63,493 bases of DNA, taken from Candidatus Cloacimonadota bacterium. GTDB taxonomy: Bacteria; Cloacimonadota; Cloacimonadia; Cloacimonadales; TCS61. The notes under the pieces were generated by a model. The model did no database searches and was not told where the DNA came from. It saw only the letters and a list, made by a program, of their open reading frames with translations. Shown here in pieces: positions 48,922-53,099 of the stretch (positions within the stretch are counted from its first letter, which is position 1; every line of letters starts with the position of its first letter). The position numbers were made by a program, and so were the translations under genes. Location: NCBI GenBank assembly GCA_021157525.1, contig JAGGWK010000007.1:1-63493 (forward strand), in the 5' to 3' direction.

Positions 48922-51024
48922 CTATTTTACATTATTCTCTGATATTACTATTTGGGCCAGATCCGCCACATGAAGGAACAAACGGCGAATTTCCGCCAGC
49001 AATGCGTAGCGGTTTTTCCGCACTTCTTCCGCTTCCACATTCACTAATACGTCATCAAAAAAGCGATCGATAACGGCCCCAAACTGCACCAGTTCTTCCA
49101 TCACTTCGGCGTATTTTCGGGCATTGAGTTTTGGCTGGATGCGGGAACGCAACTGCCCCAGCTCTGCATAAAGAGCCTGTTCAGCAGGTTCCACCAACAA
49201 AGATTCATTCACTTCGCCACCAGAACGTACATCGGCAATAATATTGGAAACCCGCTTAAATCCCAAGACCAGCTTGATAAAGTCATCCCGTTGCTTAAAG
49301 GTCTGCACATCCAGTCCCCGCCGCTTCAGGTCGGAAATATCCCGGTAAGGCATGTGCACCACACTGGCGATCACATCGTATTCGATGCCGGCATTTTTCA
49401 GCAGCCACTCTATCCGCTGCTGAAAAAAGTCGATAACAACGCTGCGATTGGCATTTTCTTCAGGCAGTTTTGGTGCCAGCAATGTAAAGGCAACATCGAT
49501 CAGCTTTTGTATATCGATAGCCCAGGGGAGTGCGTCTAAAATCTGCACCACACCGTTTGCTGCCCGACGCAAAGCAAAAGGATCAGCGGAACCGGTGGGA
49601 ATAAGCCCCACGCCGATGATGCCACACACAGTATCCAACTTGTCGGCCACAGCCACCAGCATCCCTACTACCGAGCGTGGCAGACTGTCCTTTTGACCCC
49701 GAGGCATATAATGCTCATAAATTCCCTGGCAGACCTGAGGATTTTCGCCACTGATGCGCGCGTAATTCATCCCTATGTAGCCCTGAAGTTTGGTAAATTC
49801 TTTTTCTCCCAGCATCCCGGTTACCAGATCGGCTTTGCACAAATACGCCGCCCGCAACGCGTCTTCTCTAAGCTGTTCCTCTGCCTTCATCTCGTCCAGC
49901 ATGGATGCCGTAATGGCTTTCACCCGGGTGGTTTTTTCCAGTAACGAGCCCAGCTGAGCCTGGAAGGTCACATCTGCCAGGCGGGGAACAAAATCTGCCA
50001 AGGGGATGGAGGTATCTTGTTTGAAATAAAATTCGGCGTCTTCCAGTCGGGCGGTGATCACCTTTTCATTTCCCCTTCGGATGAGCTCGCTGTGAGCGGG
50101 ATCACCGTTGGAAATAAAGACAAACCCATTTACCAAATGGCCGGCTGCATCCTGAATGGCAAAGTACTTCTGGTGCTGCGAAAGGGTGGAAACGATGATT
50201 TTGGATGGAAGCTCCAGATAGCGTTTGTCGAAGGTGCCGATAACTGCGGTGGGAAATTCCACAAGGTCGGTAACCACATCCAGCAGGCGCTCATCAGGGA
50301 TCACGGCATCGGTGCGGGAGGCAAAAAGCGCATCTATTTGAGAGCGGATACTCTCCTTGCGTTTTTCCCGATGAGCAATAACAAGAACCCGCCCGAGGGC
50401 AGCTTCGTAATCATGCACGGATGCAATGGTAGTGCTGTTTTCCAGGTTGGCATAGCGATTTCCGTAAGTGGTGGCCCCGGCAGTGATGCCAAAGAGCGAG
50501 ACGGGAATAACGTCGGCATCCAGCATCGCCACGATCCAGCGAACCGGCCGGGCAAAGGAAGTTTGCATCAAGTCCCAGCGCATGGTTTTGGGAAAGGAGA
50601 TGGTTTCCACAGCTTTTTTGATGAAGGTGGGAAGCAGTTGGGCGGCAGGTTGCCCGATACGCTGCATGCGCAGGGCTATTTTTTCTCCCTTGGGAGTATC
50701 CTTTATCACGATGTCGTCAGGGGAGGCTTTTGCACTTCGCAGGAATCCCTGAGCAGCCTTGGTCAGATTTCCCGCCGCATCATAGGCCATCGCTTTGGAA
50801 GGCCCTACCCGTTCGATAATCTCGTCCTGCTGTTTCTTTTGGAGACCCTGCAGCACAAGGGCAAAGCGGCGGGGTGTGGAATAGGTATCCAGTCGGGCGT
50901 AGGACAGTTTTGCATCCCGTAATTGAGCGGTGAGTGCCGTCTGCAATTTCTGCATTGCCGGGCTTATATAACTGGCGGGAATTTCTTCCACCCCGATTTC
51001 CAACAAGAAATCCTGTACTTCCAT
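48922..51024 (-). CDS. glyS: Glycine--tRNA ligase beta subunit
   Basis: DFLLEIGVEEIPASYISPAMQKL...PKTMRWDLMQTSFARPVRWIVAMLD...GLIPTGSADPFALRRAANGVVQIL. Confidence 0.95.
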   Translation of the reverse strand: MEVQDFLLEIGVEEIPASYISPAMQKLQTALTAQLRDAKLSYARLDTYSTPRRFALVLQGLQKKQQDEIIERVGPSKAMAYDAAGNLTKAAQGFLRSAKASPDDIVIKDTPKGEKIALRMQRIGQPAAQLLPTFIKKAVETISFPKTMRWDLMQTSFARPVRWIVAMLDADVIPVSLFGITAGATTYGNRYANLENSTTIASVHDYEAALGRVLVIAHREKRKESIRSQIDALFASRTDAVIPDERLLDVVTDLVEFPTAVIGTFDKRYLELPSKIIVSTLSQHQKYFAIQDAAGHLVNGFVFISNGDPAHSELIRRGNEKVITARLEDAEFYFKQDTSIPLADFVPRLADVTFQAQLGSLLEKTTRVKAITASMLDEMKAEEQLREDALRAAYLCKADLVTGMLGEKEFTKLQGYIGMNYARISGENPQVCQGIYEHYMPRGQKDSLPRSVVGMLVAVADKLDTVCGIIGVGLIPTGSADPFALRRAANGVVQILDALPWAIDIQKLIDVAFTLLAPKLPEENANRSVVIDFFQQRIEWLLKNAGIEYDVIASVVHMPYRDISDLKRRGLDVQTFKQRDDFIKLVLGFKRVSNIIADVRSGGEVNESLLVEPAEQALYAELGQLRSRIQPKLNARKYAEVMEELVQFGAVIDRFFDDVLVNVEAEEVRKNRYALLAEIRRLFLHVADLAQIVISENNVK

Positions 51025-51113
51025 TTATAACCTCATTTTATTCAAATGAGATTCAACATTTAAAGTACCTTTATTTTGTCTAACTTTTTATTGTAAAAAT
51101 CAAATGGGGCACC

Positions 51114-51277
51114 GGTAACGTTCTGGGTATTCCCGACGTGCCCGTCCCACTAAGCCTGTCACAAAACTTGCCAAACGTCATACTAACCTCACGAATTGCA
51201 AGCTTTGTGACAGAGGGCATATCCCGCAGGACAGGCTAGTCTTTAGGCGTCATGGAAATACCTTGTTAGTTATACGC
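51114..51277 (-). other. attC-like recombination site
   Basis: Minus strand: GCGTATAAC (R'') - TAACAA - GGTATTTCC (L'') ... bulged palindrome ... GGGAATACC (L') - CAGAAC - GTTACC (R', hybrid with flank). Confidence 0.55.
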
Positions 51278-52068
51278 AGTAGCCGGCCTATCATTTTAAT
51301 CCACCTCATGTAATACCCAAACATTTGGTTCTATATATTCTCCGATATCTTTTTCTAAATTTATTTTAACAGGTTTTAAAGCACCCTGAATTACATAATC
51401 ACCAGTTTCAAAGAATTTCATTTTTGTCCATTCTTCCCATTCAGCTATAGTTCCAGGAATATACATTGCTTTATGACAAGGTTTTATTATTTTCCCTCCA
51501 AGTCTAACGTGAACACGTAACCAAGGATCAAATGGTAAACCATCTTTTCTTTCCCACTTTATATAATTATCTATCGGTATTAAGGGATATTTGCTTTTAA
51601 GACTGGGCCTAACCGGTATAGTTACATATTTAAAACCGTTATCACGCGCAATCGAGATCATCTCTTTTACTATAACAGAACTTATTCCTTTACCTTGGTG
51701 TTCTTTATTTACAGCAATTTGAAGACCATTTAAAGTATTTGCCTTAATATTATTCAATTTATCATTAATTCCTTTCTCTAATACCCAATCCCAACCTCTT
51801 TCAGGTAACTCTTCAAATGATTTATCCCAAAAATATGGTAAACAATTAGCCACACCGATAATTTCATCATTAGCCATTAAAGAAAACTGAACCTCAGGAA
51901 AAAGTTCGAATAACTTAAGCCAATTCGCATTAGAAACAAGGTCATGAAACATAAATTCGGGCCATAATTTTGATGTGCCTTTATCTTGTAACTTTACATG
52001 ATTAGGTACATTTTTTATAACTTTATATTGCATACTGATTTCCTCTCTCCCTGGGCTATTGCGTATAA
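51119..52068 (-). mobile_element. Putative single integron-type gene cassette (GNAT gene plus attC-like site)
   Basis: Near-perfect 19-bp inverted ends (51266-51284 vs 52054-52072, 1 mismatch); intervals from ends to CDS only ~11 and ~20 nt; AT-rich CDS; long imperfect palindrome on the 3' side of the gene. Confidence 0.55.
51296..52033 (-). CDS. GNAT-family N-acetyltransferase
   Basis: GLQIAVNKEHQGKGISSVIVKEMISIARDNGFKYVTIPVRP (acetyl-CoA binding signature); markedly more AT-rich than neighbours. Confidence 0.85.
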   Translation of the reverse strand: MQYKVIKNVPNHVKLQDKGTSKLWPEFMFHDLVSNANWLKLFELFPEVQFSLMANDEIIGVANCLPYFWDKSFEELPERGWDWVLEKGINDKLNNIKANTLNGLQIAVNKEHQGKGISSVIVKEMISIARDNGFKYVTIPVRPSLKSKYPLIPIDNYIKWERKDGLPFDPWLRVHVRLGGKIIKPCHKAMYIPGTIAEWEEWTKMKFFETGDYVIQGALKPVKINLEKDIGEYIEPNVWVLHEVD

Positions 52069-52148
52069 CTAATTAAGAGTTTCCAGACTTTCCCATGCCG
52101 GGAAATTCTGTTAACATCCGGTACCCCGCACAATAATGTTGCTCAGAA

Positions 52149-53099
52149 TCAGAATTGATAACTGAGGGTAAGCTGGTTTACCAAGCCCAGGTCTCCGTAG
52201 GATACAGCAGCGTAATCGATGGTCATACGGTAGCGTGGAATGGCAAATCCGGCGCCTGCAGAAAGGCCGGAGAGAAATTCGCTATCCCCACCGCTTTTCC
52301 AGTCATCGGCATTGCTTTTGTAGCCAGCTCGCAGCATCAGGCCGGGATAGGCAATGTACTCGGCGCCCATGCGAAAAGAAAAATCCTGATCCAAAGGATG
52401 ATAGACATCCAGAAGGGCGATGGTTTTTTCGCTGAATCGATAACTCACTCCTCCGACAAAGGTGGTGGGTAAGCCCTCTTTGTATTTATCGTCGGTATAA
52501 TAGGTGAGCTGAGTGCCGATATTTTGCAGGGTAAGCCCTACCTTAATGTGTTCGTTGGTAGATTGATGCAGGATAGCAATATCAGCGGCAACAGCGGAGG
52601 CGCCGTGTTCATCCAGGGATTCGCTGATGTATTTGAGGTTGATCCCTACATCCAGCATATCAGAGGCCATGTGGCTGGCGGCGATGCCCAGCACGACGTC
52701 GGAAACCCCGAAGGTACCGGTAGATGCCGCAGGATCATATTGACCATTTTCATCGGCCACGGTGCGATCCTCTTTGGTATAAAGTCCTTTTATAAAGAAT
52801 GCAAGGGTGGTTTTGTCATCATAAGGATGGGTAAAAACCGCAGAGCCACACTGAGTGTTATCGATATAATTCATGTAGCTGGCCGAGGCGTTGTGGTTAC
52901 GAATCTGGTGAAGGCCGGCGGGATTGTAAAACACGGTATTGGCATCGTCGGCAAGGCCGGTGAAGGCGTAGCCCATGGCAGCCTGACGTGCGGCGAAATT
53001 GAGTTTCAGGAAGCTGAATCCGGTGGTACCGGCGTCTTCATTTATGGCAAAAGCCGAAAGGGAAAATCCCAGCAACAGTAAAAGCATTGATTTTTTCAT
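52149..53099 (-). CDS. PorV/PorQ-family outer-membrane protein
   Basis: AGTTGFSFLKLNFAARQAAMGYAFTGLADDANTVFYNPAGLHQI; C-term LTLSYQF. Confidence 0.85.
   Translation of the reverse strand: MKKSMLLLLLGFSLSAFAINEDAGTTGFSFLKLNFAARQAAMGYAFTGLADDANTVFYNPAGLHQIRNHNASASYMNYIDNTQCGSAVFTHPYDDKTTLAFFIKGLYTKEDRTVADENGQYDPAASTGTFGVSDVVLGIAASHMASDMLDVGINLKYISESLDEHGASAVAADIAILHQSTNEHIKVGLTLQNIGTQLTYYTDDKYKEGLPTTFVGGVSYRFSEKTIALLDVYHPLDQDFSFRMGAEYIAYPGLMLRAGYKSNADDWKSGGDSEFLSGLSAGAGFAIPRYRMTIDYAAVSYGDLGLVNQLTLSYQF

Follow-up and report, generated by a model that had tools for sequence, protein, structure and literature searches.

The window, the whole 63,493-nt stretch of Cloacimonadota DNA analysed here, is contig C10 of a draft genome of 2.23 Mb in 87 contigs, 98.5% complete. 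It carries a GNAT acetyltransferase gene between two host genes, a porV-like gene upstream and glyS downstream, with all three on the minus strand. The GNAT gene has a G+C content of 31.6%, versus 50-52% for porV and glyS. The features of the locus, in minus-strand order, are these:

52149..53099, minus strand: porV-like gene, the upstream host neighbour, with full-length homologues in the family, many of them adjoining glyS
52118..52127, minus strand: first half of the porV terminator stem, GGGGTACCGG, with loop bases ATG at 52115-52117
52069..52114, minus strand: 46-nt hairpin mini-element, TTAACAGAATTTCC..GGAAACTCTTAATTAG, with G^TT at both edges, a 59-bit match to model R1 and stem covariation
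51119..52068, minus strand: very likely a one-gene integron cassette, 950 bp, with a G^TT cut at both ends, assigned from attC geometry and the minimum-energy fold
51296..52033, minus strand: GNAT acetyltransferase gene, 245 aa, Pfam Acetyltransf_1 (E 7.8e-7)
51269..51277, minus strand: attC box R'', GCGTATAAC, from sequence and G^TT-pair scoring
51254..51262, minus strand: attC box L'', GGTATTTCC, 6 nt from R''
51126..51134, minus strand: attC box L', GGGAATACC, 6 nt from the cut
51119, minus strand: last base of the cassette (G), which with the cassette start at 52068-52061 yields box R', GTTATACGC, in the circle
51106..51115, minus strand: second half of the porV terminator stem, CCGGTGCCCC, with loop bases TTA at 51116-51118 and the tail ATTTGATTTTT at 51095-51105
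48922..51024, minus strand: glyS, the downstream host neighbour, Pfam tRNA_synt_2f (E 1.7e-189)

The original prediction, made from the letters of this DNA, had recognised an AT-rich acetyltransferase reading frame here, and both the composition and the Pfam match confirm it. Full-length homologues with 48-54% identity occur in related genera, where they are located in ordinary chromosomal settings, and none was seen by eye to be carried elsewhere as a cassette. The cassette found no match among phages and the protein none in viral contigs; plasmids contained distant relatives only, and no solved structure was informative for the protein (best E 0.03). The GNAT gene is a foreign acetyltransferase.

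The gene is tightly enclosed by 19-nt inverted sequences (51266-51284 and 52054-52072), which had been noticed at the outset along with the distances of about 11 nt to the stop and about 20 nt to the start. Both distances are correct, and the two sequences are complementary at 18 of 19 positions, within a 32-nt, 81% inverted pair. Their TTAG/CTAA tails fall outside the R box and the cassette start, one in the attC spacer and the other in the 46-nt element. It had further been proposed that the minus strand is cut at G^TT at 52069/52068 and 51119/51118, and that circularisation restores an R' box complementary to R''. The attC geometry supports this proposal: in the circularised cassette GCGTATAAC and GTTATACGC form 9 of 9 pairs and R' begins with GTT, the spacers TAACAA and CAGAAC are symmetric (6/6), and L'' and L' are joined by nine pairs, eight Watson-Crick and one G-T, with a long central stem. 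The minimum-energy fold of the circular-junction strand, computed without constraints, pairs both the R and the L boxes (-41.4 kcal/mol with DNA parameters), and forcing these boxes leaves the fold unaltered. An inverted pair of 23 nt (83%) at 51156-51213 makes up the inner attC stem, and the site is thus unusually long (about 165 nt).

The geometry was scored against the rest of the window by circularising all G^TT pairs 350-1600 bp apart, on both strands, and grading R box, spacers and L box. Of 35,430 such pairs none beats the real cassette, which scores 18.25 compared with 17.25 for the runner-up. The GNAT gene runs towards its attC, as a single compact gene whose stop lies 11 nt before the extended repeat. 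A search of the genome for further copies of the box sequence, which the original prediction had suggested as a check, did not add to the case: GCGTATAAC occurs six times, no more than its reversed control, so that only the pair at the cassette is informative. A narrow covariance model, R2, built from 15 attC sites mostly of class 1 and 2 cassettes, gave no match at the cassette attC, and it was equally blind to intact attC sites in Cloacimonadota. An earlier attC scanner gave noise, with matches in shuffled sequence too. In all likelihood, the stretch from 51119 to 52068 on the minus strand is an integron cassette with a single gene.

The lack of an integron integrase, first noticed for the window, extends to the whole source genome, where no intI scored over the curated cut-off; the cassette is therefore an orphan cassette, or SALIN. 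Because the genome is a draft, 98.5% complete, an intI could have been missed. A candidate truncated intI on contig C47 of this genome was rejected, being only an Xer-like C-terminal fragment. At the threshold used, intI turned up in 6 of the 125 Cloacimonadota genomes. One full-length integron integrase (L065, G003:C128:535-1479, 443 bits) comes from the same family as the window's genome; other full-length examples lie in another family of the class (four: G111, G115, G116 and G121) and in the order (one: G065). A Cloacimonadota integron was also seen at L090/L066 (G035:C175), where an intI match split over two frames stands beside an attI-like region and an attC cassette array.

The site of insertion can be read from the flanks. 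On the minus strand, the outer flanks ...GCGGGGTACCGGATG (ending at 52115) and TTACCGGTGCCCCATTTGATTTTT (from 51118) are the two halves of one intrinsic terminator, and joining them gives a stem of 10 bp whose 6-nt loop is ATG^TTA, followed by a T-rich tail. The position of the second half agrees with the porV-glyS gap of relatives. Stems of at least 10 bp across the join arise at 123 of 41,779 G^TT pairs (about 0.3%), before a tail or a stop codon just upstream is required, a figure that is only indicative because the right-hand cut (52114/52115) was picked with the terminator in view. The left junction is thus ATG^TTA in the terminator loop, neither attC nor attI, and the right junction is the edge of the 46-nt element. 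The length of 950 bp first given for the inserted unit is right for the cassette, but the inserted DNA is longer, because the hairpin element at 52069-52114, which had been overlooked, belongs to it: the insert runs from 51119 to 52114 and comprises 996 bp, the 950-bp cassette plus the 46-nt element. Removing it reduces the porV-glyS gap from 1128 bp to 132 bp. A comparison of this junction in relatives, also suggested initially, found insert-free gaps of 134-183 bp in seven genomes (G001, G012, G015, G030, G034, G035 and G037), several of which have a terminator-like hairpin behind porV. The window's genome is the sole member of its genus among those compared, and the empty site is a reconstruction since all insert-free relatives belong to other genera. 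The insertion is precise and lies at a G^TT within the loop of a terminator, which is what an attG site would predict.

The 46-nt element is not peculiar to this locus. Related copies occur at six further places in the same genome and in 12 of the 125 Cloacimonadota genomes, and every copy diverges at the edge that abuts GTTATACGC in the window, i.e. the cassette-side edge. Eight of the 12 stem pairs are changed on both sides among 27 distinct copies, with none of 500 shuffles reaching the observed values. The element was considered as an ordinary attC and rejected on its spacer, which is too asymmetric (1 versus 7 nt); it was also rejected as an attI, since in arrays it sits inside attC R'' with genes running towards it.

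In other genomes the same hairpin forms one end of full-length units, of 2403 bp (G013), 2355 bp (G036) and 2384 bp (G008, whose far flank is seen only in part because the stretch ends there), with edges G^TTGAACTAAGCTGC...G^TT. These 2.36-2.40 kb units encode an IS91-family transposase (E 5e-116; NF033538, 388 bits; Y2_Tnp PF04986 with a zinc domain, PF14319) and also an Xer-like tyrosine recombinase. The recombinase scores best against integron integrases, yet at 184 bits it remains below the 265-bit cut-off, and the IntI-specific insert is absent. A full-length unit sits within R'' of an array attC (CACGCTTG^TTRRRY on the unit strand) and is oriented against the cassette genes; the same or related contigs also contain uninterrupted attC sites of that type. 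The two ends of the unit show attC-like R''/R' complementarity over 12 nt, and they are hairpins that fit the origin and terminator ends of rolling-circle elements in shape only. Shorter forms accompany the units: G031 has a 183-bp gene-less form as well as a 46-nt form, and G004 has two MITE-like copies in one array. No IS91 transposase was found in the source genome of the window, where the 46-nt element is homologous only to the end of such units.

Within that genome, six of the seven element copies stand where G+C falls from host values of about 44-52% to about 31-36%. Contigs C14, C22, C43, C50 and C79 end inside their foreign segments, and the copy at C17 looks solitary. The genes beside the element encode HsdM, an Eco57I/TaqI-type restriction-modification protein and a Schlafen-AlbA_2/HTH protein, at C14, C22 and C50 (L017, L126 and L016 in G000), and each of these segments reaches the contig end. 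They are possible defence-gene cassettes or islands. Elsewhere, patatin-like and nucleotidyltransferase-like genes lie behind the 183-bp gene-less element in a cassette array (L051 2050-4627, G031:C88), and by eye they make a CBASS-like pair. In several genomes the hairpin element is repeatedly preceded by a large secreted beta-helix protein that ends in a sorting tail of the Por type (L049, L054, L138, L139, L140 and L128), an assignment made with Pfam for the L128 copy and by eye for the other five.

Several explanations for this arrangement need to be weighed. The near-perfect inverted pair around the gene could suggest a passenger gene carried by a DNA transposon, or by a MITE-like element, whose terminal inverted repeats are the 19-nt sequences. 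This reading is rejected on its edges and is highly improbable: the true edges, at 51118/51119 and 52114/52115, do not coincide with the repeats, and about 150 bp of attC extend beyond the left one. The unit contains no transposase, no target duplication flanks the repeats, and the right-hand CTAA belongs to the element, which is found elsewhere without the gene. The original prediction had left a choice between an off-site insertion and the remnant of an array. Cassette-like gene series with attC sites do occur elsewhere in this genome and in the family, so a last survivor of a larger array or integron lost from between porV and glyS might be imagined. That history is improbable, and it is less favoured because both outer flanks are the two halves of a single host terminator; the locus has no array trace apart from the 46-nt element, and relatives have porV and glyS without an array. 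The off-site insertion is the alternative that stands, on the strength of the rejoined terminator and the insert-free relatives.

A different question is how the element and the cassette came to lie together. They could have arrived in a single insertion at the terminator G^TT, as an array of two units in which GNAT follows a mini-cassette that consists of an attC only. Both units have G^TT at both ends and lie in tandem as in an array, and the start of a cassette at the element edge is the normal array order. On the other hand, the element occurs alone or beside other DNA at further sites of its own genome, which argues that it moves independently, and its asymmetric spacer is unlike a standard attC; joint arrival is possible, though we lean against it. 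The probability comes close to even, but just short of it, that the 46-nt element was placed by an HUH transposase of the IS91 type, with GTTA beside the hairpin end as its target, rather than by a tyrosine recombinase, and that only GNAT came in by integron recombination. The full-length units do carry such a transposase, GTTA is present in the terminator loop too, and the element has a hairpin 7 nt from its end, followed by GTTA, which we take to resemble the origin end of IS91-type elements. GTTA alone would leave unexplained why full-length and MITE-like copies with both ends visible are located in attC R'', and the units have attC-like ends as well as an Xer-like recombinase of their own. 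Either enzyme, the IS91 transposase with its GTTA target or the recombinase with its G^TT cut, could account for the mobility of the element.

The explanation that we prefer, and consider probable, is that the GNAT gene is a genuine integron gene cassette, as originally predicted, that was integrated outside any integron, in the porV terminator loop and beside the 46-nt hairpin element, which is attC-like. A single cassette is supported by the attC geometry, by the terminator that its flanks rejoin to, by the insert-free porV-glyS gaps in seven relatives and by the lack of an intI over the cut-off in the genome. The hairpin element probably settled in the terminator loop (...CCGGATG^TTACCGG...) before the cassette arrived. 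The folded attC of the cassette circle may then have been brought together with the G^TT of the element edge by an integron integrase, acting in trans or since lost, and insertion of the circle there would make the element a landing pad. This order is not favoured by the other copies of the element, at which the neighbouring gene (those at C14, C22 and C50) runs towards the element; only in the window does it run away. Since porV, GNAT and glyS share one strand and the terminator is split, porV transcripts may read through into the promoterless GNAT cassette.

An orphan cassette is in itself of a kind already known, and what sets this locus apart is the combination of cassette, element and terminator loop. 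SALINs are single attC sites that lack an integron integrase, and such orphan cassettes are frequent in some genera (PMC9229058; see PMC9024848 on single attC calls). Like them, the present locus has one gene, one attC and a genome without an integrase (PMC9229058, PMC9024848), whereas here the borders of the insert and the break in the host terminator are exact, and the insert also includes another small element. Cassette integration at chromosomal attG sites has been described (Loot et al. 2024, as cited in PMC12901181 and PMC12444791). The likeness lies in a cassette joined at G^TT to a chromosomal site that is neither attC nor attI, and the difference in that this is a natural Cloacimonadota case, its G^TT belonging to the loop of a terminator and also to a hairpin element's edge.

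For the element family, the nearest report that was found is ISShvi3, an IS91-like element adjoining attC in a Shewanella integron, which likewise places an IS91 transposase unit by an attC; the same survey saw no IS interrupting attC (PMC9229058). The Cloacimonadota unit differs from ISShvi3 in its position, within R'' of array attC sites, in encoding an Xer-like recombinase as well, and in having gene-less forms of 183 bp and 46 nt. Group IIC-attC introns insert at the bottom-strand R'' of attC, at TTG-T-T sites and opposite to cassette genes, and also use terminators (PMC7923331). Their choice of target thus resembles that of the Cloacimonadota family, but the genes of the Cloacimonadota units are for a transposase and a recombinase instead of a reverse transcriptase, and both unit edges are G^TT. 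The IS1111-attC elements are also insertion sequences that target attC; they have a DEDD transposase, unrelated to the genes of the unit, and use a different site in the attC. These elements are cited in PMC9229058, and IS1111 is treated in PMC11187229. No published report of an IS91/Xer-like unit inserting into attC was found in the open-access literature, which as a single class of source makes this weak evidence of novelty. There is apparently no earlier report of an attC-targeting element class of this type, the smallest hairpins of which lie where host DNA gives way to AT-rich foreign DNA (six of seven copies in one genome).

It is possible, though less likely than not, that a family of units with an IS91 transposase and an Xer-like recombinase, together with gene-less derivatives of 183 bp and 46 nt, is maintained in the cassette arrays of Cloacimonadota through G^TT insertion inside attC R'', and that its attC-like hairpin ends, when dispersed over a chromosome, serve as landing pads at which cassettes and other foreign genes are captured outside integrons. 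The parts of gene capture seem to have spread in the source bacterium without an integron platform. The locus offers a natural, base-exact example of a chromosomal cassette outside an integron, and the phylum is one for which there are no laboratory integron models. The host site is known, as a terminator loop on the coding strand, and suggests a route to the expression of a promoterless cassette. The element class makes directly testable whether mobile attC-like hairpins seed cassette capture.
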